Program-made: the position numbers and the translations under genes
Notes under the pieces: generated by a model
What the model was told of the DNA's origin: nothing
Database searches by the model: none
Seen by the model: only the letters and a program-made list of their open reading frames with translations
NCBI RefSeq assembly: GCF_001632845.1
Contig: NZ_CP011994.1
Span: 992,001-1,056,000 of the forward strand
From: Ectothiorhodospira sp. BSL-9
GTDB lineage: Bacteria > Pseudomonadota > Gammaproteobacteria > Ectothiorhodospirales > Ectothiorhodospiraceae
Direction: 5' to 3'
Length of the DNA stretch: 64,000 bases
Shown here: in pieces, positions 1,189 through 21,762 of the stretch
Layout: each line of letters begins with the position of its first letter
Numbering within the stretch: position 1 is the first letter of the stretch

Positions 1189-1243
1189 CCTGCCCGGTTC
1201 AAAGCGGTTTGCGGCCGCTGGTCAGCGCAGGCCAAATGCCCGG

Positions 1244-1405: not shown

Positions 1406-1406
1406 G

Positions 1407-2530: not shown

Positions 2531-2595
2531 TGAGGTGGACCCCAAGATTCGGACCAGGGGTTAAGCTCTGATCATTCCGACAGGAGAATCTGATC

Positions 2596-2883: not shown

Positions 2884-3731
2884 GCCGGGCCCAGCGACAG
2901 GCCCTGGTGGAGCCGCAGGCGGTTGATGTCAGCGTCCGGCGACAGTGTCAGTTGCTCGACATCAGCCGTTCTTCGGTGTACTACCGGCCCAAGCCGACCC
3001 AGGATAGCGACCTGGAGCTGATGCGCCTGATTGACGAGGAATACCTGCGAAGGCCGTTCTATGGTTCGCGGCGGATGAGGGCCTACCTCAACCGCTTGAG
3101 CCACCCGGTAAACCGCAAGCGAGTCCAGCGGCTGATGCGCCAGATGGGCCTGCACGCCGTGTATCCGAGGCCGCGCACCAGTCGACCGGGCGAGGGCCAC
3201 CAGATCTATCCCTACCTGCTGCGGGATCTGGTGATCGATCGTCCCAACCAGGTCTGGGCGACCGATGTGACGTTCATCCCGATGGCCCGGGGGTTCATGT
3301 ACCTGGTGGCCATCATGGACTGGCACAGTCGTCGTGTGCTCTCCTGGCGTGTGTCGAACACCCTGGACACCGACTTCTGCATTGATGCCCTTGAGGAGGC
3401 TCTGGCACGCCATGGGCGACCCGAGATATTCAACACGGACCAAGGCTGCCAGTTCACCAGCAAGGCGTTCACCCAGGTGCTGAAAGACCACAAAATCCAG
3501 ATCAGCATGGACGGTAAGGGCTGTTACCAGGACAACATCTTTGTGGAGCGGCTCTGGCGCAGCGTGAAGTACGAGTGCGTCTACCTGAAGGCCTTTGATA
3601 ATGGCGTCCACTTACGCCAGGATCTGAAGCAGTACTTCACCTGGTACAACGCCGAGCGGCCCCATCAGGGGCTGGACGACGCAACACCGGATGAGGTTTA
3701 CTTCAACCAACCTCTGACTCGGGCGGCCTGA
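2880..3731 (+). CDS. IS3-family transposase OrfB (DDE catalytic subunit)
   Basis: A 283-residue integrase-core protein. An N-terminal helix-turn-helix region (LDISRSSVYYRP) precedes the rve domain, with the acidic triad visible as D in WATDVTFIP, D in NTDQGCQFTS and E in DNIFVERLWRSVKYE. A start at TTG 2880 is weak; synthesis as an OrfAB fusion through the upstream slippery heptamer is more likely. The frame is full length for the family. Confidence 0.94.
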   Translation: MSRAQRQALVEPQAVDVSVRRQCQLLDISRSSVYYRPKPTQDSDLELMRLIDEEYLRRPFYGSRRMRAYLNRLSHPVNRKRVQRLMRQMGLHAVYPRPRTSRPGEGHQIYPYLLRDLVIDRPNQVWATDVTFIPMARGFMYLVAIMDWHSRRVLSWRVSNTLDTDFCIDALEEALARHGRPEIFNTDQGCQFTSKAFTQVLKDHKIQISMDGKGCYQDNIFVERLWRSVKYECVYLKAFDNGVHLRQDLKQYFTWYNAERPHQGLDDATPDEVYFNQPLTRAA

Positions 3732-3803
3732 CGCCTGAGAGCTACAACCCCGGTTAGAGCTTAACCCCCCTGTCAGGTGGTCCAGTGGATGGGGTCCACT
3801 TCA

Positions 3804-4414
3804 CTCTGCAGCAGCGCCGTCAGCTGGCGAGGCCGCATCGTCGCCAGCCCCTCGAAAACCATGTCAAGGTTATGGAAACTCTCATGCGCGGGCAGTTCGT
3901 CAAGTGCTTCGAGGATCGCGCGCTCCGGCGAAGATATTCGGAGCGTCCAGCCCCAGGGCAGAGTCGGGGCATTGCCGTGTTTGTATTCCGTCAGACCGAG
4001 CGACGGGTCATCAAACAGGGACAGGGGGCGGCTGATGAGCGGTGCGTCGAGGGTGAGGCGCGACAGCCAGCTTGGCGTGTCACTGCCGTAGACCCACACG
4101 GGCGGATACGCACCCAGCGGAAGATAGTGGCGGTAACCCTGGAGGTCAAGGGCGGACGTGCCGCCGACATGGACTTGATAACCCATGATTTTCTGGAGAG
4201 ACAGGATGCAACTCTTCCAGTCTGGAGGGGCTGGCTGCGGCATGGGGCGACGGAAGACACCGCGCTCCAGCCGCTCCAGCCAGCCGCGATCCACGTATTT
4301 CCGGGTGAGGAACCGGTTGACGCCGTGGTTCTCCAGCCAGCGCGCATCCACCACAAAACCGGCGGGAACAGCTTCCAAGACACTCTTCAGCTTTCCCTCT
4401 TTTTGTGCACTCAT
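3804..4414 (-). pseudogene. AbiEi antitoxin copy A, 5' part interrupted by IS3
   Basis: From ATG 4414 this codes for about 203 residues of the antitoxin, including the N-terminal winged-helix region (VLEAVPAGFVVDARWLE, then RKYVDRGWLERLERGVFRRP), which in AbiEi proteins binds the promoter. Reading then runs into the IS3 end and stops after a few foreign residues. The missing C-terminal part lies at 2320-2530. In the family the C-terminal half is needed to neutralise the toxin, so loss of antitoxicity is likely while DNA binding may persist. Confidence 0.85.
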
Positions 4415-4600
4415 GGCACACATTATGGGTAATGCTCGAAGATTAATGCAAGCCTGCTTCGGACTCGCAAGATTATGGGCGCTTCCGGTCGCCGGCACGA
4501 ATTGCATGCAATATCCCAAAAAAGGATGCCCGCAATATGGAAGTTTTCGGGCGTCCGCAGGGCAGCAGTGAGGAGTCGTTCGTGAGCAACGGCTCGGCGG

Positions 4601-4680
4601 CCGCTCCGGGTCGCACACCGCCATCCCACTGGGCCCATGCTTGTGTTTCCTCCACCTCAAACGAGGAAACTGACCATGAA
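4601..4680 (+). repeat. Dispersed repeat R2, integrase leader (copy A)
   Basis: An 80-bp sequence beginning CCGCTCCGGGTCGCACACCG and ending at the integrase start codon. Near-identical copies are at 43122-43201 and 6020-6103, with a short partial copy at 53344-53372. It appears to be the upstream region of a multicopy tyrosine integrase. Confidence 0.75.
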
Positions 4681-4806
4681 AGATTCGGAAAAGACTGCCC
4701 CCCGTGGAACAAGGGCAAACTCATTGGCCAGCTGGAAAGTACCGTCCGCTACCTCGGCATCGAGGTCGATGACGCCCTGGAGATGGCCGAACGCACCGAA
4801 TGCTGA
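4676..4806 (+). pseudogene. Tyrosine integrase remnant, internally deleted and frameshifted (copy A)
   Basis: The text PWNKGKLIGQ belongs to the N-terminus and LESTVRYLGIEVDDALEMAE to the C-terminus of a tyrosine recombinase of about 200 residues, from general familiarity with that family. Here they are joined directly, so the whole catalytic middle is missing. Compared with the copy at 43197 this one has also lost 13 bp after codon 7, which puts the start out of frame with the rest. Confidence 0.75.
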
Positions 4807-4816
4807 TACGCCTGGG

Positions 4817-4854
4817 CCGGTCAGCGCCCCTCCCCCGTCAGGTGCGCTGACCGG
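4817..4854. terminator. 11-bp perfect inverted repeat after the integrase remnant
   Basis: CCGGTCAGCGC at 4817-4827 pairs with GCGCTGACCGG at 4844-4854 over a 16-base loop. It follows the integrase stop and may be a terminator or part of the element's recombination end. The same hairpin is at 43351-43388. No T-run follows. Confidence 0.5.
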
Positions 4855-4942
4855 TACTGGACAGCCAGCGATGCGCGCATGCCCCCGAGAAGGCAACCGA
4901 CAGATGATGGTAGGCCGGCGGCGCCAATGGTATGCCAGGTCA

Positions 4943-5459
4943 TCAGCGCACCCAACTGGATTGGTCGCGGGGAAACCGCCTGTCCGGATCGTTCACCATG
5001 ACCGAATTCCCATCCTTGAGACGGGCTGAGTACACGATGAGGTTCGTACCGCCTTCATGCACCTGGCTCGGGAAAAGGATGCCGGTGCAGCCACGGGCCA
5101 ACACCATGTCTGCAAGAACCCAAGTGGGGGGGTTCGATGTGAAGATCGAACTTCAGGTGCCGCCAATCATGCCAGAGGTCGTCCCAGGGCTCCCCACGAT
5201 ACAACTGGCGAAGGTCGACCAGATCTCGGAGCGTCACAGTGTAGGAGCACATCGTACAGGGCGGCAGGAAGGGTGAGGTCTGCTGGTACTCACGCAACGC
5301 AGTCACCTCGTCCAGCGATAGATAGAGTGCCTCAACGCCGTCTCGGTTAAAGCGTCCCCCTTGGATTGCGGCACCCGCGCCGCTTGTCGGTCTGCTGGCC
5401 CACTGCGGGGTATGCGCCCGGAATAAGATAGTACCGGCAGGGAGGTTAACGAGGATCAC
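4943..5459 (-). pseudogene. RES-domain NAD-targeting toxin, frameshifted (copy A)
   Basis: RES toxins degrade NAD+ and are held in check by an Xre/MbcA/ParS antitoxin. Reading from GTG 5459 gives the RES N-terminal half, with LFRAHTPQWA, GGRFNRDGVEALYLS and EVTALREYQQ. At a run of seven C (coding strand; G-run near 5126-5132) the frame slips and ends at 5055. Removing one base restores a frame through TWVLADMVLARGC and VHEGGTNLIVYSARLKD to a stop at 4943, about 172 residues. The start overlaps the antitoxin stop as GTGA, showing translational coupling. Copy B has the same seven-base run. Confidence 0.8.
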
Positions 5460-5824
5460 CCGACGAAACCGGTGCTGATCGACTCCAGATAGCCAATCAC
5501 GTCGTCGGTGCGACCTTCCTGTACGAGTTGCAACAGGGTCTTGTGGCGGAAGGCGGGAATGGGCTCGTTCTTGACCAGGAAGATGGCTCGCTGCAGATCC
5601 GACTCCACTGCCATGGCCGCCGACAACACCCGCATGAGATCACGCAGTGCGGATTGGAGTTTTGGGGATTCCGGGTGGGTGCGAAGGGTGTTGCGATGGA
5701 CACCCGCCAACTCGGCCAGGTCTTGCTGCTGCATGCCGAGAATGTTGGCGACATTCGACGCGGAGAACCGCGAAGTACCGACTTCGCGCGTCGATTCGAG
5801 CACGTCTGCGAAGATGGCGGTCAT
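5456..5824 (-). CDS. Xre/MbcA/ParS-type antitoxin of a RES toxin pair (copy A)
   Basis: A 122-residue protein starting at ATG 5824 (MTAIFADVLESTRE). A helix-turn-helix region (FSASNVANILGMQQQDLAEL to AGVHRNTLRTHPESP) is followed by the C-terminal toxin-binding domain (DLQRAIFLVKNEPIPAFRHK to QEGRTDDVIGYLESISTGFVG). Such proteins bind their own promoter and block the RES active site. The stop overlaps the toxin start by four bases. With the toxin frameshifted this looks like an antitoxin without a working partner. An identical copy is at 43878-44246. Confidence 0.85.
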   Translation of the reverse strand: MTAIFADVLESTREVGTSRFSASNVANILGMQQQDLAELAGVHRNTLRTHPESPKLQSALRDLMRVLSAAMAVESDLQRAIFLVKNEPIPAFRHKTLLQLVQEGRTDDVIGYLESISTGFVG

Positions 5825-6148: not shown

Positions 6149-6640
6149 TTACGGATTCGCTTCAGAGTCGCGCTCAATGAAATGACGCAGATTGATGGTG
6201 TCTCTCAGAGTCGCCCGCTCCATACTGGTCGGGCTACTGAAGGGCGGCACCCAGAAATCCAGCGCAATGTGCATGCCTGCCTTCAGACTGGTTGCGTCAC
6301 CGGCTGGCTCCAATTCCCAGGGGGTGGAACCGGCGCGCAGATCTAACCAGGCATCGGGCATACGTCCTGACCGCTGCAGGAAGCCAAGCCGACCAGTGGG
6401 CCGCGTTGCCAGGCCTAGTATCGGGCATCGACATCCGGACCTGTCACAAGTGCGGGGTGCGCGGGCAGGATCAGTCCAGGCCCCCTCCGTCTCGTCGCAG
6501 TGGTGTAGTGGCTTGCGGCGCCCCTTCCCAACTGGGGTCCAACCCAAGAAAGGTCTGGATATCTGATACTTCGCTTGGTCCGACTGTGCATGCGATGAGT
6601 TCCGTTTCGGACACGGATCGGCGTTGGAACCTCTTTTCAA
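6149..6640 (-). pseudogene. Unidentified coding remnant with apparent frameshifts
   Basis: The last 75 residues of this frame (PDAWLDLRAGSTPWELEPAG onward to NLRHFIERDSEANP) read like real protein. Over 6471-6640 a different frame of the same strand reads more like protein (VSETELIACTVGPSEVSDIQ, TFLGLDPSWEGAPQ), while the present one is Arg/Pro-rich noise. This suggests one gene broken by at least two frameshifts, perhaps continuous with the gene upstream. The family is not recognised. Confidence 0.4.
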
Positions 6641-7392
6641 TTCGATTCGTGATCTTCCAGTGGATCCTGCGGCTGTTCGACCGAGACCCAGTGCAGATCG
6701 GCGACCGGCTCCTTGAAACCAAATTCAACGGCATGATTGCCGATGAAAAATTCGCCTCGGGCATGAGACCAGCCATGGTCTTTCACCCGCGTATCCATCC
6801 ACTCAAAAAGTGCCTGCAGCGCAAGGGCGATGCGTGGACGCGCCTCATAGTCCAGCCCGTGCGCTTCCCAGGTGGTCCGGGCAGTGTCCCACCGCAGCCA
6901 GCCCTCGCGCACGAACCCGGCGGTGAACAATGCCCGGAGAAGGCCGTCGCCGAGTTTGCAACGTAAATCCTGGATGCCCGCGCTGGGGCTGGCTGCGGTG
7001 GGAATCGACACTATCAGCGGCGCCGGTAGCAGAGTTTGCCAGTCCCGCCCCTCGACAGTTCCGGTGAGCAGGTCCTCGTCGATAATCTGCTGGAAATCTG
7101 GCACTGGGTCCGACCCGGTACGCTGAGCCAACTGGATCAGCGCGCCGGCCTCATCGAGGTAGCCAGACAGCTGAAAGCCACATAGGTGGTGATCGACGAG
7201 GTCGTGGACGAAGACAGAGGTGGGGATTCGCTCCCCCGTGTATGGGGTCGTGGCTATCACGTCGGGCCCCGCGCCAGGCACATCAAGCTTCCAGCCCCGG
7301 GCACCAAACCCGTCATCCCATTGCTCGGCGAAGATGGCCGATACCCGGACCTGACGCCGGCTAGCGCAAGGGGGCGGCGCAGCAGAAGACAT
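6637..7392 (-). CDS. Hypothetical protein, 251 aa
   Basis: The family is not recognised. The protein is acidic and soluble, without signal peptide or membrane segments, and contains a readable central stretch (FVHDLVDHHLCGFQLSGYLD) and an aromatic C-terminal third (FEWMDTRVKDHGWSHARGEF). Its stop overlaps the TTG that opens the broken frame downstream, so it may be the 5' part of a larger damaged gene. It lies between the degraded toxin-antitoxin island and the bufferin operon. Confidence 0.5.
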   Translation of the reverse strand: MSSAAPPPCASRRQVRVSAIFAEQWDDGFGARGWKLDVPGAGPDVIATTPYTGERIPTSVFVHDLVDHHLCGFQLSGYLDEAGALIQLAQRTGSDPVPDFQQIIDEDLLTGTVEGRDWQTLLPAPLIVSIPTAASPSAGIQDLRCKLGDGLLRALFTAGFVREGWLRWDTARTTWEAHGLDYEARPRIALALQALFEWMDTRVKDHGWSHARGEFFIGNHAVEFGFKEPVADLHWVSVEQPQDPLEDHESN

Positions 7393-7697: not shown

Positions 7698-7712
7698 CTA
7701 GGTATTCCTACG
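7698..7712 (+). promoter_or_regulatory. Shared 15-bp motif upstream of bufA
   Basis: CTAGGTATTCCTACG, 96 bases before the bufA start. It is one of five matches to YTANGTATTCNYMCG in the window, each in an upstream region. The following GAATTACC makes a rough dyad with GGTATTC. Confidence 0.6.
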
Positions 7713-7807
7713 AATTACCCCTTCAGGCCGTGCCCCCTAATCTAAAACCAGGCTTGGAGCAAACCCCAGGCCCCGCGCGTTCTATTCATTGATCAAGGAG
7801 CACCCTC

Positions 7808-8125
7808 ATGACCCAACATACCGCCCAATCCCTCTCCGCCGCCAGCATGGCCGGTGCCTTTGCCCTGGCCGTGGCGGGCGCCGTGTATGCACCCAGCGCC
7901 GTGGCGTCCTCGGCCACCATGGAAAAATGCTACGGCGTTTCACCTGCAGGCGAGAATGACTGCGCCGCCGGGCCGGGCACCTCCTGCTCGGGGACCTCCA
8001 CCCAGGACTACCAGGGCAACGCCTGGAGCCTGGTACCCGCTGGCACCTGTGAAGAGCTTGAACTCCCGGGCGACCGGCAAGGCAGCCTGGAACCGCTGGA
8101 CCGGGATCTGCCGAGCCGGTCCTGA
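7808..8125 (+). CDS. bufA1: Bufferin-type metal-binding peptide precursor (DUF2282)
   Basis: A 105-residue precursor with an N-terminal signal region ([20 protein letters not shown]) and a mature part holding four cysteines at 41, 52, 60 and 81 in the conserved setting [30 protein letters not shown]2282 proteins are bufferins: secreted peptides that bind copper after their cysteines are modified by a BufB-BufC pair. Both partner genes follow directly. An AAGGAG ribosome site precedes the ATG. A 15-bp motif shared with other promoters in the window lies 96 bases upstream. Confidence 0.9.
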
Positions 8126-8197
8126 GAGACCGGCCCGGCATCGTCTTGATATCCACACCGCAAGGATGCGGTACTCCAATTCATCGCGGGAGGTTTC

Positions 8198-9100
8198 ATG
8201 TCTGATCCGACGCGCCCCCTCACATTGGCCGGTGCAGATGCCATCCCCCCATCGGCTGGCGTGGGCCTCAAACCGGCACACTACCGGACGATCCTTGAAC
8301 AAGCTCCCCAGATGGGTTGGTTCGAGGTCCACGCCGAGAACTACATGGGCGCCGGTGGTCCGCCTCATCGTTACCTGACGGCCATCCGCGAGCGCTACCC
8401 CCTCTCCATTCATGGTGTGGGGCTTTCCATCGGTGGCGCACAGGCACTGGACCGCCAGCATCTCAACCGACTGGCTGAGCTGGTGCGCCGCTATCGCCCC
8501 GGGCTGTTTTCGGAACACCTGGCCTGGTCCACTCACTCGGGTGGATTCTTGAACGACCTGCTGCCCCTGCCCTACACCGACGAGACCCTGGATCGCGTCT
8601 GCCGCCACATCGATCAGGTGCAGGACGTGCTCGGACAACGCCTGTTGCTGGAAAACCCGTCCACCTATGTGGACCTGGCAGACAGCACCATCAGCGAGAT
8701 CCAGTTTCTCGATGCCGTATCGCACCGCACTGGCTGCGGATTGTTGCTGGACGTGAATAATGTTCAGGTCTGCGCCACCAACCATGGCTTTGAGGCCCAG
8801 GCGTATCTGGATGCGTTCCCCATGAATCGGGTGGCCGAGATCCATGTGGCCGGCCACGATCAGCAACAGGACGACGGGGGTCGGCCGCTGCTCATCGACA
8901 CCCATGACCGCCCCGCAACCGCCGGGGTCTGGCAGTTGCTGGACCACACCCTGGCACTCACCGGCCCCCTGCCCGTGCTCATCGAATGGGACAACCACAT
9001 CCCCTCGTGGCCAACCCTGTTCGATGAGTCCCGCAGGGCTCAGCATCTGCTGGATCGCCATATCCTGGATGAGGAGGCAGGCCATGCCCTTGCAAGCTGA
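8198..9100 (+). CDS. bufB1: MNIO-family (DUF692) multinuclear iron oxygenase for bufferin maturation
   Basis: A 300-residue TIM-barrel enzyme of the DUF692/MNIO family, which modifies peptide cysteines with an iron cluster. Metal-ligand segments of the family are present: EVHAENYM, SIHGVGLSIGG, SEHLAWS, LLDVNNVQVC, EIHVAGHD and IDTHDRP. It sits 72 bases after bufA and overlaps bufC by 17 bases, matching known bufA-bufB-bufC operons. Substrate assignment to the bufA product rests on this context. Confidence 0.92.
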   Translation: MSDPTRPLTLAGADAIPPSAGVGLKPAHYRTILEQAPQMGWFEVHAENYMGAGGPPHRYLTAIRERYPLSIHGVGLSIGGAQALDRQHLNRLAELVRRYRPGLFSEHLAWSTHSGGFLNDLLPLPYTDETLDRVCRHIDQVQDVLGQRLLLENPSTYVDLADSTISEIQFLDAVSHRTGCGLLLDVNNVQVCATNHGFEAQAYLDAFPMNRVAEIHVAGHDQQQDDGGRPLLIDTHDRPATAGVWQLLDHTLALTGPLPVLIEWDNHIPSWPTLFDESRRAQHLLDRHILDEEAGHALAS

Positions 9101-9848
9101 ATACGAGGCCGATTTCGTGCAGGCCCTGCGCCAGCCCGACACCCCGCTGCCCGTGGGGGTTCGCGGCCATGGTTCCCTGCCGCCAGTACTGCGGTTTGGC
9201 GTTTATCGCAACAATGTGCACGTCAGCCTGGTGGAAGCCGTGACCCGGCTCTACCCCGTGGTCCAGCGGCTGGTGGGAGAATCATTCTTTCATGCCCTTG
9301 CCCGCCGCTTTGTGGGGCAGGTGCTGCCTGAAAGCCCGGTACTCATCGACTATGGAGAGGCATTTCCCGATTTTATCGACTACTTTGAACCGGCCGCTCG
9401 CCTACCCTATCTTGGCGATGTGGCGCACATCGAGTGGGCCTGGCACCGTGCCTATCATGCCCAGGATCAGACGCCACTGCCGCCCCAGGCACTGTCCCGG
9501 ATACCGCCCGAACAAGTGGGGCACCTGCACCTTGGGTTGCACCCCTCCCTGCGCGTGCTCGAGTCCCCCTGGCCGGCCCGTTCCATCTGGCATACCAATC
9601 GCCATGATGCCCAGGTGAAGCGTATCGATCTGGAGAGCGGCGCTGAGGCCACCCTCGTCTGCAGGCCCCACATGGATGTCCAGGTTCACCGGGTTCCCTT
9701 GGGCACGGCAACCTTTGTCAAGGCCCTGAGCGCAGGTTGCCGCCTGGCACAGGCGGTCGACCAGGCCACCCAGCACCCCGGTTTCGATCTGCAGGCCAGC
9801 CTTGAGAGGCTGGTGGGCAGTGGCGGCGTCACCGCGTTTCGGTTCTGA
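9084..9848 (+). CDS. bufC1: Bufferin maturation partner (DUF2063/HvfC family)
   Basis: A 254-residue protein of the DUF2063 family, which presents the precursor peptide to the MNIO enzyme. The family N-terminal domain is visible (FVQALRQPDTPLPVG, LRFGVYRNNVHVSLVEAV, LYPVVQRLVGESFFHALARR), followed by DYGEAFPDFIDYF and LPYLGDVAHIEWAWHRAYHA. The ATG at 9084 lies inside the end of bufB, implying translational coupling. The C-terminal half is the more variable domain. Confidence 0.88.
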   Translation: MPLQAEYEADFVQALRQPDTPLPVGVRGHGSLPPVLRFGVYRNNVHVSLVEAVTRLYPVVQRLVGESFFHALARRFVGQVLPESPVLIDYGEAFPDFIDYFEPAARLPYLGDVAHIEWAWHRAYHAQDQTPLPPQALSRIPPEQVGHLHLGLHPSLRVLESPWPARSIWHTNRHDAQVKRIDLESGAEATLVCRPHMDVQVHRVPLGTATFVKALSAGCRLAQAVDQATQHPGFDLQASLERLVGSGGVTAFRF

Positions 9849-9861
9849 CAGGCCCACGCAC

Positions 9862-11538
9862 ATGAACACACTCCCCCTCTCCCTGAGTCGACATCACTGG
9901 CGCCGGGTGGTATCGGTCAACGGCATGGCCCTGTTACTGCGCAGCCTGATGCTGGTCACCCTGTATTATGCCGTGGGCATGTGGGGGTTCGTCTTTACCC
10001 CCGATGCCCATGGCATTCCCCTGGTGTGGCCTGCCACCGGTGTGGGACTGGCCTTCGTGTTTCTCTACGGCTACTGGATGCTGCCTGCTGTGGGCATCGC
10101 CGCCGCCCTGATCACCTGGCAGTTCACTCTGGAAGTGGTGCCCCCGCTCGAAGCGGTCGGGATCGTCGCGGCCACGTTGATGGGGGTGGCCTTGGGCGGT
10201 CACCTGCTGCGGCGCCTGATCATGAGGCCGCGACTGGATCGGTTGCGGGATGTGTGGCTGTTCCTGAGCGTTGGCGCCGTGGCGTCCTCAGGGCTGGCGG
10301 CCCTGGCCGGGGCCTGGGGCATGGCCGTGGGCCTGGAGGAGGTGCGCTTCACCCAGACCTGGTGGCTGTGCTGGGTGGCGGACCTGATGGGACTGGTGCT
10401 GGTGGCGCCGGCGCTCATCAGTTGGCTGGGGGCGCCGGTCCGTCTCAGCCGACCGGTATGGATCAAGGCGGTGGTCCTCACGACCGGCATTACCGGCATT
10501 GCTGCGCTCGTGTATTCCGGCGTGCTGCCTGCGGGGATCGCCATGCCGCTGTCCTACGCGGTCTTTCCACTCATCATGCTGGCAGCGGTGCGCTGCCCTG
10601 TTCAGATCACCGTAACGCTCACCCTGATCGCCGGGCTCATCGCCCTGTCCGGGACCGGCTGGGGCTTGGGGCCATTCGTTGACATGGGTCTGGACGAGAG
10701 CCTGTTGTCCCTCAATGCCCAACTGGCCCTGCTGGTCCTGACCGGACTGGTGCTCAACGCCCTGAGCCATGAGCGCGAGGCGGCAGAGCAGCGGGCACGT
10801 CACTACCTGGAGGATCTCGCCCGGGCGGGACGACTGAGCACGCTGGGCGAGTTGTCCTCCAGTCTAGCCCATGAACTCAACCAGCCCTTATGTGCCTTAT
10901 CAAGCTATGCCCAGGCCTGCAAGCGCCTGCTGGCCCAGGGCAAGATGGATGCCCTCCAGGAGGCACTGGGGCAGCTGGACGCCAGTGCCCACCGGGCTGC
11001 AGAAACGGTGCGACAGATGCGTGCCTTTGCAGCCGGTCAAACCCCCGAGCAACAACCCGTATCGCCCCGTGACCTGGTGCATCCGGTACTTGAACTGCTG
11101 CGACCGGAACTGAACCGGCGCCATATCCCATTGACGGTCCATCTCCCCGACGCGCTGCCCAGGGTCTCCGTGGTTCCCCTACAGGTGGAACAGGTGCTCA
11201 TCAACCTGCTGCGCAATGCCATGGACGCCGTCCAGGGCAGGAGTCCAGCGCGCATTGATCTTCAGGTGGCCTCCACGCGCGATGGCCTGACCATGATTGT
11301 CACCGACACGGGACCGGGGATCCCCCCCGAACGCCTGCCCCGACTCTTCGATCCTTTCGCCACCTGGAAGGAAGGGGGACTGGGGTTGGGCTTGTCCATC
11401 AGCCGATCCCTGATCGAGGCCCACGGGGGGCAATTGACCGCACGCAACCTGCCGGAAGGCGGGGCCGAATTTCGTTTCAACCTCCCTTTGGAGACGCATC
11501 ATGCCAACCCAAACACCCCATATTCATCTCGTGGATGA
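9862..11538 (+). CDS. Membrane sensor histidine kinase with MASE1 domain
   Basis: A 558-residue kinase. The N-terminal half is a MASE1-type integral membrane sensor with about eight hydrophobic segments (for example FTPDAHGIPLVWPATGVGLA). It is followed by a HisKA domain with the phospho-acceptor in SSLAHELNQPLCALSSYA, an N-box (LINLLRNAMDAVQ), and G-boxes (DTGPGIPPERLPRLFDPF, GLGLGLSISRSLIEAHGG). ATG 9862 was chosen because it lies 13 bases after the bufC stop. It overlaps the regulator gene by 38 bases, so the two are a cotranscribed two-component pair; the signal is unknown. Confidence 0.9.
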   Translation: MNTLPLSLSRHHWRRVVSVNGMALLLRSLMLVTLYYAVGMWGFVFTPDAHGIPLVWPATGVGLAFVFLYGYWMLPAVGIAAALITWQFTLEVVPPLEAVGIVAATLMGVALGGHLLRRLIMRPRLDRLRDVWLFLSVGAVASSGLAALAGAWGMAVGLEEVRFTQTWWLCWVADLMGLVLVAPALISWLGAPVRLSRPVWIKAVVLTTGITGIAALVYSGVLPAGIAMPLSYAVFPLIMLAAVRCPVQITVTLTLIAGLIALSGTGWGLGPFVDMGLDESLLSLNAQLALLVLTGLVLNALSHEREAAEQRARHYLEDLARAGRLSTLGELSSSLAHELNQPLCALSSYAQACKRLLAQGKMDALQEALGQLDASAHRAAETVRQMRAFAAGQTPEQQPVSPRDLVHPVLELLRPELNRRHIPLTVHLPDALPRVSVVPLQVEQVLINLLRNAMDAVQGRSPARIDLQVASTRDGLTMIVTDTGPGIPPERLPRLFDPFATWKEGGLGLGLSISRSLIEAHGGQLTARNLPEGGAEFRFNLPLETHHANPNTPYSSRG

Positions 11539-12163
11539 CGATCCGGATGTGCGCGCCGGGGTGAGCCTGCTGCTCAAGAGCGAGGACTTTCATGTCCGCG
11601 CCTTCGGCGACGCCCAGGCGGTGCTCGAGTTCGTGACACCAAAGACCCCCGGCTGCCTGATCCTGGATGTGCGCCTGCCGGACATGGATGGTCTCACCCT
11701 GCAGCGTCGGCTGAAGGAGCAGGACATCCGTATGCCCATCGTGTTCATTACCGGCCACGGAGACATTCCCATGGCGGTGCGGGCACTGAGTGAAGGCGCC
11801 CTGGATTTCCTGGAAAAGCCCTTCGGCGATGAGGCGCTGCTCGACGCGGTGCGCGATGCCCTGGAGCGGGATGCCGAACAACGGGCCGGTGCCCAGGAAG
11901 TCGCCCATCTGCAAGCGCGGCTCGACTCACTGACCCCACGGGAGCGTGACGTTCTGGAGGGTCTGCTGGATGGCAAACCCAACAAGCTCATCGCCCGGGA
12001 TCTGGATGTGAGCGTGCGCACCGTGGAGATCCATCGCAGCAATCTCATGCAAAAGATGGGGGCCAAGAGCGCATCCCACCTGGCTCGGTTGGCCCTGGCC
12101 TGCAGCGAGTATCAACACCGCATGCTGCCGACGACGGCCATCGATGAAAAGTCCTTGTCCTGA
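11501..12163 (+). CDS. FixJ/NarL-type response regulator
   Basis: A 220-residue regulator. The receiver domain has the acidic pocket HLVDDDPD, phospho-acceptor Asp56 in LILDVRLPDMDG, Thr84 and Lys106 (LEKPF). The C-terminal LuxR-type helix-turn-helix is plain (LTPRERDVLEGLLDGKPNKL, VSVRTVEIHRSNLMQKMGAK). It is the partner of the overlapping MASE1 kinase. Its position in the buf cluster makes it the best local candidate for binding the five-times repeated 15-bp motif upstream of bufA and other genes, but that link is inferred. Confidence 0.92.
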   Translation: MPTQTPHIHLVDDDPDVRAGVSLLLKSEDFHVRAFGDAQAVLEFVTPKTPGCLILDVRLPDMDGLTLQRRLKEQDIRMPIVFITGHGDIPMAVRALSEGALDFLEKPFGDEALLDAVRDALERDAEQRAGAQEVAHLQARLDSLTPRERDVLEGLLDGKPNKLIARDLDVSVRTVEIHRSNLMQKMGAKSASHLARLALACSEYQHRMLPTTAIDEKSLS

Positions 12164-12210
12164 GCCGAGCCACATCGGCGACAGGCAACCCCTGGCAGAG
12201 GAGAGTGTCC

Positions 12211-12714
12211 ATGAGCACGTCGATCCATCATCCGGGCAAATCAGCCGGCCAGTCCCTGGTGCGCCTTGTCGACGCCACCGCGCGGGGATTTGGGTATCTG
12301 CCCGCCTCGCTATCGGCCCTTCTGCTGCGGATCGCCGTGGCCATCCCCTTCTGGCGATCGGGGCTGACCAAGTGGGACGGCCTGCAACTCTCCCCGGGGG
12401 CCCGCTGGCTATTCGAGCACGAGTTCCAGCTGCACCTGTTCGGCGAGACCTATACCATGCCCCTGCCCGTTCTCAGTGCTTATCTGGCGGCCATCGGCGA
12501 AATCCTCTTGCCAATCCTGCTGATCCTGGGGCTGGGCACCCGCTTTGCGGCCCTCGGCCTGCTATTGATGACCCTGGTGATCCAGCTGACCATCCCCGAT
12601 GCGTGGGCCACGCATCATTTGCCCTGGGCCGCCATGCTGCTGGCCATCATGACCTGGGGGCCAGGAAGGGCCTCCCTGGATCATGCCCTGGCGCGGTGGT
12701 ACCGCCGCCCATGA
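12211..12714 (+). CDS. DoxX family membrane protein of the buf cluster
   Basis: A 167-residue integral membrane protein with four hydrophobic helices and the DoxX pattern (LLLRIAVAIPFWRSGLTKWD, AAIGEILLPILLILGLGTRF, WAAMLLAIMTWGPGRASLDH). DoxX proteins are common last members of bufferin operons; they are thought to act at the membrane with redox partners. ATG 12211 is preferred over GTG 12205 because the AGAGGAGA ribosome site at 12197-12204 fits it. A second DoxX gene is at 21305. Confidence 0.87.
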   Translation: MSTSIHHPGKSAGQSLVRLVDATARGFGYLPASLSALLLRIAVAIPFWRSGLTKWDGLQLSPGARWLFEHEFQLHLFGETYTMPLPVLSAYLAAIGEILLPILLILGLGTRFAALGLLLMTLVIQLTIPDAWATHHLPWAAMLLAIMTWGPGRASLDHALARWYRRP

Positions 12715-12812: not shown

Positions 12813-13370
12813 ATGACCCAAGACCGTTTTCCCCTGCACGAGGATGCTCAAGTCCCTGAGCCTGCGCGTGAACTCAGCATGAGCAAGTTCGGCATGATCC
12901 CCAACCTGATTCGCTCCATGTCCACTTCCCCTCAACTGGCCGAGGCCTATCTCACCCTGAATAACCTGTTCGAACAGACCAGCCTGACGGTGATCGAGCG
13001 CCACGTGATCCTGCTCACCATCAGCGCGCGCCACCAATGCCACTACTGCGTCGCGGCCCATAGCATCACGGCGGACATGTCGGAAGTGCCGGCAAAGATC
13101 ACCCAGGCGCTGCGGGCGCAAGAAGTGCTCGAGGATCCGCGTCTGGAGTCATTGCGCCAGTTCACCCTAGCGGTGGTGGAACAGCGTGGCTGGGTGTCGG
13201 ATGCACAGGTGGAGGATTTTCTGGGCGCCGGGTTCACTGACCAACAGGTGCTGGAAGTCATCCTGGGGGTAGGCCTCAAGACCCTGAGCAATTACACCAA
13301 CCACGTCACCGCGACCACGCTGGATGAACCCTTTGCGGCTCGCCGCTGGGAACCTTCGGCATCGGGTTGA
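12813..13370 (+). CDS. AhpD-like carboxymuconolactone decarboxylase family protein 1
   Basis: A 185-residue all-helical protein of the CMD/AhpD family with the redox CxxC pair at Cys76 and Cys79 in SARHQCHYCVAAH, followed by the conserved His. Such proteins serve as thiol peroxidase partners or peroxidases. GAGAGGCC precedes the ATG. It lies after the DoxX gene in the same direction with a 98-base gap. A paralogue of related size and motif is at 14699, and a kinase gene lies between them on the opposite strand. Confidence 0.85.
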   Translation: MTQDRFPLHEDAQVPEPARELSMSKFGMIPNLIRSMSTSPQLAEAYLTLNNLFEQTSLTVIERHVILLTISARHQCHYCVAAHSITADMSEVPAKITQALRAQEVLEDPRLESLRQFTLAVVEQRGWVSDAQVEDFLGAGFTDQQVLEVILGVGLKTLSNYTNHVTATTLDEPFAARRWEPSASG

Positions 13371-13386
13371 CCGCCGAGCCGAGGGA

Positions 13387-14478
13387 TCAGGGCCTAGGCA
13401 TCGGGTCACCATCAGGGCGCTTGGCGCCAGGCTGAGGCCTTGATGGTGTCCCTTCCAGCGTCGGCCCTGCAGGCAATACCAGCCGAAAGGTGGTTCCCTC
13501 CAGACCCGAGTTCAGGAGGAGCAGATCTCCCTGGTGATTACGCGCCAACTCCCACGCGATGGCCAGGCCCAGCCCCGCCCCTCCAGGCGTTCGTGAGCCG
13601 GACTTTTCCGAGAACAAGCGAGCGCGCATCGCCTCCGGGATACCCGGGCCGTCATCCGACAGGTCGATCAGCAACGAGTCGGCTTCACGACTGGCGATCA
13701 CCTGGAGGCGCGAGGCACCTGCGGCCAGCGCATTACGGACCAGGTTCAGCAGAATACGGTAAACCTGATCGAAGTCCGCATCCACCTCTGCATCCGCTGC
13801 TTGCGAGGTATCCAGGGAGGCACGGGCCACCTCTTCGGGGCCGATGGCCGCACGGATCTCTTCAAGCACATCCCCCAGCAAGAACCGCTCCCGCTGGGGT
13901 TGCTGCTCTTCGGCATTGCCCACCTCCAGGGTTTGCTGGCACATGTTCACGGCACGGTCCACCGAACGCGTGATCAGTTCCGCACTGCGCCTGACCATGG
14001 GATCTTCATGACGGCAGAGTCGATCCCCCATCAGGCGGGATGCCACCATGGTGTTACGCAGGTCGTGGGTGAGCTTGCGGATGGATCGACCCAATTCCGC
14101 CAGTTGTTCCTCGCGTCGATCACGGACGACAGTCAGGACGTAGACGTGCCCCCCGATGCACACTTCGGTTGCCCGCACCTGCGCAGGCAACAGGGATCCA
14201 TCCCGGGTGCGACAGGACAGATCATCGGCCACCCAACGGCCATGCTCACGCACGGACACCATGAAGGCATCCAGCCGCGGGATCTCGTGGGGGTGTATGT
14301 CCGTGGGGGTCAGCTGGGTGAATTCCTCGGCCGAATACCCCAGAAACCGACAGGCCGCCGCATTGGCGCCAATGAAACGCCCTTGAGCCGGGTCGATCAG
14401 GAATGCCGGGTCGTAGAGCTCCTCGAACAACTGAGCAATGCCCTGTGCGCTGTTCGCAATGGCGTCGGCAAGGATCAT
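13387..14478 (-). CDS. PAS-domain sensor histidine kinase, soluble
   Basis: A 363-residue kinase with one PAS domain (ELYDPAFLIDPAQGRFIGAN, ACRFLGYSAEEF) and a PAC-like end (DLSCRTRDGSLLPAQVRATE), then a HisKA-like helix with the acceptor in IRKLTHDLRNTMVASRL, an N-box (ILLNLVRNALAAGAS) and G-boxes (LSDDGPGIPEAMR, GAGLGLAIAWELARNHQG). No membrane segment is seen, so it senses in the cytosol. ATG 14478 has a GGGAA ribosome site. No regulator gene is adjacent. It is convergent with the AhpD-like gene at 12813 and divergent from the one at 14699. Confidence 0.88.
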   Translation of the reverse strand: MILADAIANSAQGIAQLFEELYDPAFLIDPAQGRFIGANAAACRFLGYSAEEFTQLTPTDIHPHEIPRLDAFMVSVREHGRWVADDLSCRTRDGSLLPAQVRATEVCIGGHVYVLTVVRDRREEQLAELGRSIRKLTHDLRNTMVASRLMGDRLCRHEDPMVRRSAELITRSVDRAVNMCQQTLEVGNAEEQQPQRERFLLGDVLEEIRAAIGPEEVARASLDTSQAADAEVDADFDQVYRILLNLVRNALAAGASRLQVIASREADSLLIDLSDDGPGIPEAMRARLFSEKSGSRTPGGAGLGLAIAWELARNHQGDLLLLNSGLEGTTFRLVLPAGPTLEGTPSRPQPGAKRPDGDPMPRP

Positions 14479-14698
14479 AAGTGATTCCCGGACAGCGTCT
14501 TTACCCAACCCTTCATGGCTGACCCTCGACCCGATGCACCAATCCTGTGCCCCAAGCCATGTATGGCGGGCGTTGAAGCCCAAGGGCCAGCATTGTGGTT
14601 ATCCCGGATAGCCAAGCTGGCCAGGCAGTGCCATCCTTGAACCACGACCGGGACCTTCCCCAAGGCGCGCAGCGGGCGCAATGCAAAGGCCGACACCC

Positions 14699-15220
14699 AT
14701 GACACAATACGATCATGATAGTGAAACAAGTCGTAGCACCCTGCAACAGGTGGCTGCGGATTTTGCGGGCACCGTTCCCAATCTCTACCGCACACTCGAT
14801 CGTCATTCGCTGTCACTGGAGGCCTTTGTACAACTGGAGCATCTGCTTGAGCGCCATGGCAGGCTCCCCCCGGATGAGCAGGCCCTGGTGGTTCTCGAGG
14901 TGGCCGTGCACAACGAGTGCACCTATTGCCAGGGCGTCTTCTCCAGGGAGGCTGCCCGGGCCGGTGTCGACACCCGAACCATCGCCGAAGTCGTGGCCAG
15001 GCGGCCACTGGGTCAGCATCGCTACCGATACCTACTCGAGGCCACGCGCCAGATCATGGAGCGTCGCGGTTGCCTGGGTCGGGCGCAAGTGGGGCTCTTC
15101 GAGGAACGGGGCGTGTCCCACGAGGACCTGCTGGAGATCATCACCATCATCTCCACATTCACCCTGGCCACCTATGCCAACAATCTGCTTCACACCCGGA
15201 TTGATCCCGAATACCGTTAA
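14699..15220 (+). CDS. AhpD-like carboxymuconolactone decarboxylase family protein 2
   Basis: A 173-residue helical protein with the AhpD-type CxxC at Cys74 and Cys77 (VHNECTYCQGVFS). In this copy the position usually held by His after CxxC reads Gln-Gly-Val-Phe-Ser, as in a subset of CMD proteins. It differs clearly from the protein at 12813, so this is not a recent duplication. The 3' end overlaps the end of the convergent FMN-enzyme gene by four bases. Confidence 0.82.
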   Translation: MTQYDHDSETSRSTLQQVAADFAGTVPNLYRTLDRHSLSLEAFVQLEHLLERHGRLPPDEQALVVLEVAVHNECTYCQGVFSREAARAGVDTRTIAEVVARRPLGQHRYRYLLEATRQIMERRGCLGRAQVGLFEERGVSHEDLLEIITIISTFTLATYANNLLHTRIDPEYR

Positions 15221-16854
15221 ACCCGCTCCAGCACCTCTTCAGTGCCAGAGCGGGTGCGGGTGAGACAATGCCGGGGCAGGAAGTGGTCCACGTCTGCCTC
15301 CTCCCAATAGAGGGCAAACTCCGGTGGCAAGGGCTGTTTGAGCAGTGCGCCATAGGGCATGTAAGGGAAGATCTCGTCATAGCGCCTGATGGCATGCTGA
15401 TCAATCCGGCGGTGTATGTGAGTCCTGTTCAACTCCAGGGTGTGACACAGGCCGGCAGAGGCGATCAGTTCAGCGGTCGCCCGCAGGGTCCTGGCATGGT
15501 AAGAGGCGACTCGATCCCCCTTGTCACTCACCACCAGACCTCGTTGCAATCGGGAATTCTGCGTGGCTACCCCCGTTGGGCAGTGGTTGCTGTTGCACAC
15601 CAGTGACTGCACGCACCCCAAGGCCAGCATCATGCCCCGGGCGCTGTTGCACAGATCGGCGCCCAGCGCCAGATTCTTGACCAGGTGAAATCCCGTCAGA
15701 ATCTTTCCCGAGGCGATCACGGTGACCGAGGATCTGAGCCCAAAACCGGTCAGGCAGTCGTCAACGAACGCCAGGGCGGCGCGCAGTGGCATGCCCACCG
15801 AGTTGGTGTATTCCAGGGGCGCAGCCCCCGTACCGCCCTCCCCGCCATCCACCGTGATGAAATCCGGGGCAATTCCGGATTCCACCATGGCCTTGCACAG
15901 GGCGACAAATTCGCTGCGCCGGCCGATGCACAGTTTGAAACCCACGGGCTTGCCGCCGGAGAGTTCCCGCAGGCGCCCAATGAAAACCATCAGACCCAGG
16001 GGAGAATCAAAGGCGCTATGGGTGGGTGGAGACTCCACCTCCACACCCACCGGAACGTCGCGGATCGCGGCAATCTCCGGTGTATTCTTGGCGGCGGGCA
16101 GGATACCCCCGTGGCCGGGCTTGGCCCCCTGAGAGAGCTTGATCTCGATCATCCTGACCGAATCCCTGACTGCATTCTCCCTGAATGTGTCGGGACAGAA
16201 TCGGCCCGCGCGATCCCGGCAACCGAAGTAGCCGGTGCCGATCTGCCAGATCAGATCGCCCCCCTCCCGCAGGTGATAGGGGCTGATACCCCCCTCCCCC
16301 GTGTTGTGGGCAAAGCCGCCCTTGCAAGCCCCCCGATTGAGCGCCAGAACGGCATTCTGACTCAAGGCACCATAGCTCATGGCAGAAACGTTCAGGATGC
16401 TGGCCCTGTAAGGCTGACGACAGTCGGGCCCACCCACCTTGACACGCAGCGGTTCGACCTTATCCACGGGAATGGCCGCCAGGGAATGGCCGATCCACTC
16501 GTAGCCGCTGCGATAGACATCCACCCGGGTGCCAAAGGGCACACTGTCGATCTCCCCCTTGGCCCGCTGATAGACGATGCTGCGAAACATGCGGCTGATG
16601 GGCGCCCCATCGATGTCCGACTCGATGAAGTATTGCCGCACGAAAGGCCGTAACGCCTCCATCATCCAACGCCCGCGGGCAAACAAGGGAAAATTGCGGC
16701 GCAGGGAGTGGCGGGTTTGAAAATGATCCCGCAGGGCCACCAGGGCCAGGACGACCCCCGCCACCGTAGCCAGGATCACGGGCGGCCAAAACCAGAATAG
16801 CGATGCGACAGACAGCGCCACGATGCCGGCCAGGATCAATACAACGATGGGCAT
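15217..16854 (-). CDS. FMN-binding glutamate synthase family protein, membrane anchored
   Basis: A 545-residue protein whose core is the FMN/2-oxoglutarate domain of glutamate synthase: SAMSYGALSQNAVLALNRGA, HNTGEGGISPYH, KLSQGAKPGHGGILPA, EVESPPTHSAFDSP, FITVDGGEGGTGAAP. A cluster-type cysteine region (CVQSLVCNSNHCPTGVATQ) is present. Two N-terminal hydrophobic segments suggest membrane attachment, and there is no glutaminase domain, so the natural substrate is uncertain. ATG 16854 follows GGAG at good spacing. It is divergent from the porin gene, with a shared regulatory motif between them. Confidence 0.88.
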   Translation of the reverse strand: MPIVVLILAGIVALSVASLFWFWPPVILATVAGVVLALVALRDHFQTRHSLRRNFPLFARGRWMMEALRPFVRQYFIESDIDGAPISRMFRSIVYQRAKGEIDSVPFGTRVDVYRSGYEWIGHSLAAIPVDKVEPLRVKVGGPDCRQPYRASILNVSAMSYGALSQNAVLALNRGACKGGFAHNTGEGGISPYHLREGGDLIWQIGTGYFGCRDRAGRFCPDTFRENAVRDSVRMIEIKLSQGAKPGHGGILPAAKNTPEIAAIRDVPVGVEVESPPTHSAFDSPLGLMVFIGRLRELSGGKPVGFKLCIGRRSEFVALCKAMVESGIAPDFITVDGGEGGTGAAPLEYTNSVGMPLRAALAFVDDCLTGFGLRSSVTVIASGKILTGFHLVKNLALGADLCNSARGMMLALGCVQSLVCNSNHCPTGVATQNSRLQRGLVVSDKGDRVASYHARTLRATAELIASAGLCHTLELNRTHIHRRIDQHAIRRYDEIFPYMPYGALLKQPLPPEFALYWEEADVDHFLPRHCLTRTRSGTEEVLERV

Positions 16855-16937
16855 GGCAGATCTCCAGGTCCTGTCCAGGTCGAGCACGGCAACGACCTAC
16901 AGGGACAGAGTAGGCCGCCACCACCCAGACACCCATG

Positions 16938-16952
16938 CGTAGGAATACTTAC
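16938..16952 (-). promoter_or_regulatory. Shared 15-bp motif between FMN enzyme and porin genes
   Basis: Read on the minus strand this is GTAAGTATTCCTACG, identical to the bufA site over its last 11 bases. It is 84 bases from the FMN-enzyme start and 162 bases from the porin start. Confidence 0.6.
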
Positions 16953-17113
16953 CCAGAGGCGCGCCAACGCCAGCCTCTAAGCAAAAACACTTAAGTAAAA
17001 CAACGCATTACCCCACTCACCCCGGAATCCTACGCTCCTGTTGAGCCCGGGATTCAAGGCCTTTCTCCCTGGCTCCGGCATCCCTAAGACCGCTGACTCC
17101 GGGAGTGAAAACC

Positions 17114-18328
17114 ATGAAGCACCCAAACAAGCCTTGCACCGCCCGCCCCACCCGACTCATGGCCTGCATCACCGCCAGCTTGCTGGCAGGCGGGTCCACC
17201 GCGGCCTGGTCCCAGACGGAGATCGACTTTGGCGGCTACGTGAAGATGGATGCCATGTTCACGGACCGCACCAACGACGCCGCCGACGATGCCAGTGAGA
17301 CCTTTCTGGTCCCCGCGTTGATCCCGCTGGATGGGCAGGAAGACACTCGAAACGTCACCCGTTACAGCGTGCGCGAGTCCCGGTTCTATCTGCGAACCCG
17401 CACACCCACCGACGGGGATGACCTGGTCACCCATATCGAACTGGATTTCATGGACAGTCGCGAACTGAACCGCAATCGACTGGTGGGTAACCAGGCGCCG
17501 CGACTGCGCCATGCCTTCGTCAGCCTGGGCCCTTGGACTGCGGGCCAGACCTGGGGCACCTTCTACAACGTCACCACCAAGCCCGAGACGCTGGACTTCG
17601 TGGGTCCGGTGGGCACTCTGTTCAACCGGAATATCCAGATCCGCTACACACGCCCCATGGGCGAATCCGACAACCTGATGCTATCCCTGGAACAGCCCTT
17701 CACCACGTTGACGGTGGAAGACAGTGGCACCAACGTGCGCAGTGGCCGGGATGATCGCTGGCCGGACATCGTCGCCCGGTACAACGTGCATCGTGATTGG
17801 GGACATGGCTCAGTGGCAGGCATCGTGCGCAACCTGCGGGCCGAACGCAGCACCTCCGACGACATCGACCGGGACATCGATGACGACGTGTGGGGGGCGG
17901 CCTTGAGTCTGACAGGCCTGGTCAAGATCGGCGCGAGCGATGATCTCAGGTTTCAGCTCAATTACGGCAATGCCATGGGTCGTTATCTGGGGCTGAACGT
18001 GTTCCCCGATGCCTTCATCGAGGCGGACGGCACGCTCGATACCCTGGAGGCCTATGGAGGCTACGTGGCCTATCGCCACTGGTGGAACCAGAACACGCGC
18101 AGCAATGCGGTCGTCAGCTATGCTGCGGCCGACAACCCCGGAGATGCCTACGCGGGGGTCAACCAGGAGGTTCAATCCGTGCACCTGAACCTGCTACACG
18201 ACGTGATGGACAACGTGATGGTCGGACTGGAATACATCTGGGCCGAGCGCTCCATCGAGGGGCGCATCAACGGTCAAGGAAGTGGTGACGTCAACCGGGT
18301 GCAGGGGTCCGTGCGGGTGAGCTTCTGA
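17114..18328 (+). CDS. DcaP-like outer-membrane porin
   Basis: A 404-residue protein with a signal peptide ending near STAAWSQ, then beta-strand-rich sequence starting EIDFGGYVKMDAMFTDRTND, the DcaP-type opening. Features of the family include YSVRESRFYLRTRTP, HIELDFMD, LRHAFVSLGPWTAGQTWGTF and a terminal Phe (VQGSVRVSF). These are trimeric channels for small anionic compounds. ATG 17114 has GGGAG eight bases upstream, better than GTG 17105. A strong hairpin follows the stop. Confidence 0.87.
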   Translation: MKHPNKPCTARPTRLMACITASLLAGGSTAAWSQTEIDFGGYVKMDAMFTDRTNDAADDASETFLVPALIPLDGQEDTRNVTRYSVRESRFYLRTRTPTDGDDLVTHIELDFMDSRELNRNRLVGNQAPRLRHAFVSLGPWTAGQTWGTFYNVTTKPETLDFVGPVGTLFNRNIQIRYTRPMGESDNLMLSLEQPFTTLTVEDSGTNVRSGRDDRWPDIVARYNVHRDWGHGSVAGIVRNLRAERSTSDDIDRDIDDDVWGAALSLTGLVKIGASDDLRFQLNYGNAMGRYLGLNVFPDAFIEADGTLDTLEAYGGYVAYRHWWNQNTRSNAVVSYAAADNPGDAYAGVNQEVQSVHLNLLHDVMDNVMVGLEYIWAERSIEGRINGQGSGDVNRVQGSVRVSF

Positions 18329-21751: not shown

Positions 21752-21762
21752 GTCACCGCGAC

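Follow-up and report, generated by a model that had tools for sequence, protein, structure and literature searches.

A bufferin operon that carries a two-component system between its bufC and doxX genes raises the question of what that system is doing there. Such an operon is found in the purple sulfur bacterium Ectothiorhodospira sp. BSL-9, in a stretch of 64,000 nucleotides (contig NZ_CP011994.1, positions 992,001 to 1,056,000) that is called the window here and is part of a single-contig genome of 3.55 Mb. Six genes, bufA-bufB-bufC-kinase-regulator-doxX, stand in a row on the + strand at 7808–12714, and profile matches and coordinates confirm this same-strand arrangement, which had been proposed in an original prediction made from the sequence. 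The metal-binding peptides known as bufferins form a large family in bacteria, and a dedicated kinase-regulator pair with a readable promoter signature would allow a regulon to be predicted from sequence, partner genes to be found and the question to be asked of what bufferin-bearing cells sense. The comparisons described below indicate that the pair is probably a dedicated two-component system that switches on the bufferin genes together with nearby stress genes.

The first gene, bufA (7808–8125, +), encodes a Buf1-type bufferin precursor of the DUF2282 family (PF10048, 84 bits, cut-off 22.4), whose cysteines 41, 52, 60 and 81 are the four cysteines of Buf1 and whose hydrophobic N-terminus was judged by eye to be a signal peptide. 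It is followed by bufB (8198–9100, +), the MNIO bufferin maturase (PF05114, 362 bits; NCBIfam BufB NF050167, 386 bits, cut-off 310), and by bufC (9084–9848, +), a DUF2063 partner protein of the MNIO enzyme (PF09836, 82 bits, cut-off 27.2). The kinase (9862–11538, +) has the composition of a MASE1 sensor histidine kinase, with a MASE1 membrane domain (PF05231, 75 bits, cut-off 29.8) joined to HisKA (PF00512) and HATPase_c (PF02518), and the FixJ/NarL-type response regulator (11501–12163, +) contains a receiver (PF00072) and a GerE helix-turn-helix (PF00196). The last gene, doxX (12211–12714, +), matches PF07681 above its cut-off with 68 bits and scores under the cut-off of the HvfX model NF050144. 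The DUF2282 precursor with its four cysteines, the BufB-type MNIO enzyme and the joint presence of DUF2063 and DoxX identify a Buf1-type cluster; a scan of 10 proteins encoded around the operon shows no sigma factor or NrsF beside bufABC. Overlaps of four to forty bases had been described between the genes, which is correct for two of the five junctions (bufB/bufC, 17 bp; kinase/regulator, 38 bp), the other three being gaps of 72 bp (bufA-bufB), 13 bp (bufC-kinase) and 47 bp (regulator-doxX). Between 7400 and 15300, a consensus scan found no sigma-70 promoter, against 1.3 expected, and terminator-like sites showed no excess over shuffled sequences (four against 3.8 expected).

The evidence for control by the pair comes from a promoter element. 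An alignment of the bufA upstream region from five Ectothiorhodospira reveals the conserved block TACGTATTCCTACGCAT 107–109 bp before the start codon, with TAATCT or TATGCT 22 nt further on; the shared element consists of a tandem TACGTAT-TCC-TACGCAT, then 22 nt, then a -10-like TNNNCT hexamer. In the window, the tandem operator core TAGGTATTCCTACGAAT lies at 7699–7715 (+), with two TACGYAT-like half-sites at a 10-bp period and a score of 35.2 in a weight matrix built from 15 sites, and the hexamer TAATCT follows 22 nt past the core at 7738–7743 (+), the same spacing being found at the sites of other operons. With at most two mismatches, there are five sites in the 3.55-Mb genome and four of them fall in the window, within 20.5 kb from the bufferin operon on, a clustering for which the rough chance is 6e-6. 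Apart from bufA, these sites precede an FMN-glutamate-synthase-like gene (15217–16854, −; PF01645), a glycoside hydrolase gene (18409–20985, −) and a small secreted-protein gene (27710–28063, −). The respective elements, all on the − strand, occupy 16907–16951 (core 16935–16951, TACTCT at 16907–16912), 21163–21207 (core 21191–21207, TATGCT) and 28138–28182 (core 28166–28182, TATTCT). The distance to TNNNCT is identical for the four window sites, and each of them is kept in another Ectothiorhodospira genome, G007, where transposase genes separate the glycoside hydrolase element from its gene; the element of the secreted protein is also kept in G009. At up to three mismatches the genome holds 40 sites against 120 for the reversed pattern, so that loose matches are meaningless and the weight is carried by the clustering and the fixed distance to the -10. 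A site at G000:3496783, found also in G007 and G009, was discarded because it coincides with the start and ribosome-binding site of a yajC-like gene.

Within the family, the presence of the element follows that of the pair. The kinase occurs in 18 of the 47 family genomes, an MNIO match in 31 and a DUF2282 match in eight; of the 18 genomes with the kinase, 16 also show an MNIO match, 15 genomes have an MNIO match without the kinase, and in the window's genus kinase and MNIO gene are found in the same five of ten genomes. The core as defined in Ectothiorhodospira precedes, with at most four mismatches, seven of eight readable pair-positive Thioalkalivibrio operons and the first gene in none of 15 pair-negative family operons (Fisher 3e-5, with independence overstated, as the lineages are related). 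Two mismatches separate it from the sites of G023, G029 and G031, three from those of G027, G059 and G066, four from that of G060 and five from that of G035, and the pair-negative first genes have at least five, one internal gene start (bufC of G010) having four. In G035, the operon missed at this threshold, the element is in the same place with its left half changed, and it scores 27.2 in a matrix built without G035. The full matrix gives 22.9–35.2 for 13 of 13 readable pair-positive operons and at most 1.2 for 15 of 15 pair-negative ones; leave-one-out scores are 15.7–33.4, and a simulated 3 Mb first-order Markov sequence contained one match at 15 or above and none at 18 or above.

Gene calls in the relatives came from a codon-usage gene caller and their starts are approximate; two starts were set by hand, that of bufA in G005 from the alignment and that of doxX in G066, where the caller's start falls upstream of the element, at a position further downstream. 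Loci whose contig breaks off within the operon or ahead of it were dropped from the 13 and 15 operons (G058, G065, G067 and, for their second locus, G060 and G021), and the third, weak MNIO match of G021 also stands outside these sets. The bufferin genes of G015, G017, G019 and G021 are scattered, hence every gene start was tested in the mismatch comparison; in the matrix comparison, the upstream stretch of G017 covers only 144 bp.

The same association was looked for outside the family, using the DUF2282 matches that are present in 97 of 369 genomes of the class. The sample consisted of 20 DUF2282 loci from 20 genomes, six of them from outside the family and also with a MASE1 match and 14 others. 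Four of the six MASE1-bearing genomes (G118, G247, G106 and G235) fall in the clade of the window kinase, and the best sites are those of G118 (22.3 at -125) and G247 (13.6 at -108), neither of which was used for the matrix and both of which have the pair and the bufferin operon on different contigs. All 16 controls stay at or below 0.6 on the operon strand and at or below 9.7 on either strand; in one of them, G355, a kinase-core and receiver match lies 2–4 kb beyond doxX. Two of four against none of 16 gives a Fisher value of 0.03 with G106 and G235 as failures, and the two closer pairs taken alone give 0.0065. In G106 the strand that reads towards the kinase scores 17.2. Further bufferin and pair cases were sought in the family of G118, and only G118 itself was found.

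Comparison of buf operons in relatives for linked MASE1/FixJ pairs, as the original prediction had suggested, shows that linkage recurs (G005, G007, G009, G001, G029, G058 and G106). The order bufABC-kinase-regulator-doxX is kept in G005, G007 and G009, three other Ectothiorhodospira (kinase 85%, regulator 92–94% identical), which argues that the arrangement is not due to chance. In G001 the order is bufABC-doxX-kinase-regulator. A bufferin-type operon with the layout doxX-precursor-MNIO-DUF2063 stands convergent beside the pair in G029 and G058, the precursor of G029 being an HvfA-family protein with KCGE repeats, and in G106, which belongs to another family, bufAB is divergent from a pair that is less closely related (regulator 42%, kinase 28–34%). 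No bufferin genes were found near the distant pairs of G118, G405, G200, G247 and G310 in the 14–18 kb fetched. The idea that the kinase is purely local to the operon was rejected, as the Thioalkalivibrio orthologues mostly stand elsewhere. Control of the bufferin operon by the pair, as originally proposed, is well supported by comparative genomics, with a promoter element that accompanies the pair whether or not it is linked to the operon.

The kinase search returned 23 loci, of which 11 are orthologues (two cut by contig ends) and the other 12 match in the kinase core only. Identity is 85% to loci named Ectothiorhodospira haloalkaliphila, E. lacustris and E. marina and 62–66% to Thioalkalivibrio; strain ATCC 51935 of E. 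haloalkaliphila carries the same operon. A tree of 22 MASE1 proteins, with midpoint root only, groups the window kinase with 13 others at a support of 100/100, and residue 170 of the membrane domain is cysteine in all 14 clade members and tryptophan in all eight other MASE1 proteins compared. A second cysteine, Cys245, is common to the seven closest kinase sequences and G405 only. Both His337 of the kinase and Asp56 of the regulator are intact. The regulator scores 252.4 bits against the FixJ model NF006900, under the equivalog threshold of 255, and is described as FixJ-like without being filed as FixJ; its closest sequence matches among solved structures are 5xso (FixJ) and 1yio. Under its GerE match (75 bits), its helix-turn-helix also matches Sigma70_r4_2 (29.2 bits, cut-off 25.7).

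The promoter of the kinase itself provides a further link between pair and element. The original prediction had held that a separate promoter with unrelated expression, or the absence of linkage in all relatives, would speak against it; linkage is present in several relatives, as described above, and at the level of sequence no element of its own precedes the kinase in the window (best -6.9) or in G001 (best -5.5), which fits transcription of the kinase from the bufA promoter. Upstream of the kinase in eight Thioalkalivibrio loci, TANGGnnnAnCCCnTA and the greater part of a TAGACT-like -10 belong to the invariant columns, and TANGGnnnAnCCC(G/C)TA, a related palindrome, is among the most invariant columns. 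On the kinase strand five of these promoters score 12.8–19.7 and one 7.7. The sequence is related and not identical to that before the bufferin operons, and may be read as a sign of autoregulation. Ahead of the more distant kinase genes (G118, G405 and G247), no score exceeds 5.2.

The putative regulon extends beyond the bufferin operon. A degenerate core, made after the sites had been seen, gives 37 sites in the 18 pair-positive genomes and nine in 26 of the 29 pair-negative ones (G063, G064 and G021 were left out), against 10 and 10 for its reversed pattern, and 25 of the 37 were judged real, with a spacer and -10 of the expected kind (one reads CTTACT and not TNNNCT). In Thioalkalivibrio, sites with spacer and -10 precede a zwf-like gene (G066 and G067), a small secreted protein (G035) and a DUF3179 gene (G027). 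The element also precedes a CzcE-family gene in G027, recognised by Pfam, and three look-alikes in G061, recognised by look and not by profile scan, with an AhpD-like gene next in line in G027 and at one of the CzcE-type sites of G061. The G027 protein matches 2wto weakly (E 0.0028), its family assignment resting on Pfam, and a sequence search with the small secreted protein of L150 found no match among solved structures. The proposed control of peptide metallophore production is supported in so far as the bufferin promoter is included, and is too narrow in that the putative regulon is wider than metallophores.

Two weaker elements in the window may belong to this set. One (16992–17036, +; score 15.2) faces the gene at 17159–18328 (+) and has a weaker counterpart in G007 (13.3; L107:1258). 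The other, at 21206–21250 (+), is tentative, with a score of 9.9 where the null gives 22 sites per 3 Mb at 9.5 or above, and has no counterpart at that threshold in G007 (L107). It faces the genes at 21305–27651, which encode DoxX2, an NDH-2-like protein and proteins resembling the products of tal, gnd, zwf and pgl.

A mechanism can be proposed from these elements. The inner-membrane MASE1 kinase would sense a stress of the envelope, for which an excess of copper or the oxidation of thiols by copper is the likeliest candidate, and would pass a phosphoryl group from His337 to Asp56 of the FixJ-type regulator. The regulator would then bind the tandem TACGYAT element, centred about 43 bp before the predicted transcription start, which for bufA falls near 7750. 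A GerE-domain regulator such as NarL or FixJ, acting as a dimer, would be well matched by two TAC-type half-sites spaced by one helical turn, and a core near -43, if the -10 is used as usual, would have the position of class II activators. The anatomy of these promoters, with a -10 hexamer and no recognisable -35, suggests that the regulator aids RNA polymerase there. The six genes from bufA to doxX would be switched on as one transcript, so that in Ectothiorhodospira the pair, lying inside its own target operon, would form a positive loop that amplifies the system. The FMN-glutamate-synthase-like gene, the glycoside hydrolase and the small secreted protein would be switched on alongside and, less surely, DoxX2 and the genes resembling an oxidative pentose phosphate set.

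The signal in this scheme is putative. The metal or redox signal at the membrane that was originally suggested fits the putative targets and the clade-specific cysteine of the membrane domain, and copper or copper-driven thiol damage is a first guess made because of these targets. Redox or chlorine stress comes close behind copper, and it is quite possible that the signal is something other than copper, for instance reactive chlorine, sulfur or quinone redox stress, with the bufferin as one among several outputs of a general response to envelope or thiol stress. The FMN-glutamate-synthase-like and glycoside hydrolase genes among the putative targets, and the zwf-like or small secreted-protein genes in three Thioalkalivibrio, would suit such a response, as would the AhpD-like and DoxX genes that accompany the operons. 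Likewise, the distant pair of G405 (L160) adjoins genes that resemble cydAB and cydDC, hinting at respiratory or redox sensing in that branch. Against a general response, a role in metal handling is indicated alike by the Buf1 precursors, the HvfA-type precursors and the CzcE-family proteins. A bolder form of the copper reading, put forward here tentatively, is that a kinase clade of several gammaproteobacterial families senses copper or copper-driven thiol oxidation in the membrane through Cys170 of MASE1 and commands an old regulon of two kinds of MNIO metallophore, CzcE-like proteins and NADPH-supply genes. Cys170 is a concrete residue for examination in a MASE1 domain and, if this reading is true, the MASE1 kinase would have a sensor role and bufferins a second dedicated control logic beside SigF–NrsF.

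A different alternative concerns control itself, namely that the element belongs to another regulator sharing the distribution of the pair, which would ride in the operon and control something else. Co-distribution cannot separate two co-inherited regulators, the pair is unlinked to bufferin genes in many Thioalkalivibrio, and DUF2063, the domain of bufC, is described by Pfam as a putative DNA-binding domain. However, bufC is also present in pair-negative operons, which are without the element, so it does not explain the element, and the regulator alone, of the 10 proteins covered by the scan of the operon region, has a response-regulator DNA-binding domain. The related element in the kinase's own promoter at the eight Thioalkalivibrio loci, the fit of tandem TAC-type half-sites to a GerE-domain regulator and the reappearance of the element with a homologous pair in two other families likewise argue for the pair, and a second regulator is considered unlikely.

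That alternative is one of several points that weigh against control by the pair. The pair-positive and pair-negative Thioalkalivibrio may be two lineages, in which case the contrast may rest on few independent events, and several of the loci that the matrix separates had served to build it. Outside the family, the site before bufA of G106 on the operon strand is weak (8.4 at -78), and in G235, whose kinase is in the clade, the element is absent before the operon (-3.3). Two of the eight Thioalkalivibrio kinase promoters, those of G023 (0.3) and G031 (-2.7), score about zero or below and have a spacer one base longer. Twelve of the 37 degenerate-core sites look like chance: three yajC sites, eight that lie in genes or are without a -10 (L152–L158) and one at a contig end in G061 without TNNNCT. 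No MNIO match was found in two of the 18 kinase-bearing genomes, G061 (99% complete), which has the pair and three element sites, and G062 (58%). Moreover, where the loci are long enough, the Thioalkalivibrio pair usually lies in a common neighbourhood without bufferin genes, flanked by genes that resemble glnS and, at the opposite end, maf, oadA and accC. That the operon is an ordinary one into which a two-component pair was inserted by chance, with no regulatory meaning, would suit a region lying between duplicated and perhaps rearrangement-prone stretches and the change of place of doxX in G001, but is very improbable given the order kept in four species, the co-distribution of the element and the renewed linkage in G029, G058 and G106.

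The genes controlled by SigF in Caulobacter are presumably bufferin genes, and these make the nearest comparison for the dedicated control proposed here. In the part of PMC3511200 available, SigF and its anti-sigma factor NrsF, two cysteines of which matter for function, govern a small regulon for metal stress whose promoters share a single conserved signature. The SigF–NrsF Buf1 clusters share with the window the core of precursor, MNIO, DUF2063 and DoxX, a dedicated regulator and a single promoter signature, whereas here a membrane kinase and a FixJ-like regulator replace the sigma and anti-sigma factors and the putative regulon differs. The accessible portion of PMC12452194, for which thousands of Buf1 and Buf2 were collected, names sigma factors and NrsF in Buf1 clusters, describes additional conserved genes as extremely rare and mentions neither kinase nor two-component system. 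Transcriptional regulators, unnamed, are said in the available text of PMC13097082 to co-occur frequently with bufferin-type clusters, again with no mention there of kinase or two-component system, and PMC12538549 mentions no kinase, two-component system or sigma factor. In Cupriavidus metallidurans, gigPABT has the same gene set and lies beside rpoQ-rsqA, so that the neighbouring regulator is an ECF (extracytoplasmic function) sigma factor; according to the part of PMC10304878 consulted, copper and gold induce gig, periplasmic Cu(I) is the proposed inducer and no evidence was obtained for control by rpoQ-rsqA. Two-component control as such has a precedent, since BvgAS positively regulates the bufferin operon bp2924-2927 of Bordetella pertussis (symposium report PMC12188742, in part). 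BvgAS differs in being a global virulence regulator with its own locus, and the same excerpt describes no shared element or co-evolution with bufferin operons. In these partial sources the named controls are otherwise sigma/anti-sigma pairs and, in Legionella, RpoS, with a letA mutant and RpoS treated in the portion of PMC5413113 seen. No report of a MASE1/FixJ pair or of the tandem element with bufferin genes was found in the open-access literature searched. FixLJ offers a likeness through the regulator, which is close to FixJ, and a difference in the targets, which here are putatively metallophore and stress genes. The sensor FixL relies on a haem-binding PAS domain; the kinase here has MASE1, with no PAS match in the Pfam scan.

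Further features surround the operon. An AhpD-like gene of the CMD family (12813–13370, +; PF02627) follows doxX and has homologues near bufferin genes in some relatives (L043, L091, L102 and L105). Within 12813–15220, a PAS histidine kinase (13387–14583, −) lies between two AhpD-like genes; homologues of this kinase and of the second AhpD-like gene are found near bufferin genes in Thioalkalivibrio (L081 and L090), as are homologues of the first in L091, L102 and L105. Divergent to bufA, 6637–7392 (−) encodes a protein without Pfam or NCBIfam match, with homologues beside a kinase-less bufferin locus (L102, 38%) and beside a CzcE-type site (L149, 73%). The secreted protein of 27710–28063 (−), also without a match in Pfam or NCBIfam, has about three W/Y-D-x-x-LQ-x-Y/F-V repeats, and a homologue (41%) is divergent to bufA in G001 (L042:5973–6350). 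A Gly/Tyr-rich small secreted protein near the kinase pair of Thioalkalivibrio (L037–L041) looks to us reminiscent of sulfur-globule proteins. In G310, a DoxX gene (L163:7809–8360) that is 66% identical to 21305–21751 of the window is divergent from the distant kinase pair and preceded by a weak element (11.6), with a similar site (8.5) in G200 (L161:9140). Duplicated pieces of 97–100% identity within 1237–5688 and 41376–44110, which look like AbiE-type genes, flank about 36 kb holding the bufferin operon and the putative regulon, a stretch that could be an island liable to be excised or rearranged. Further direct repeats of 247–300 bp and 89–97% identity are found in the window at 32021/39889, 33943/46100 and 29565/47264.

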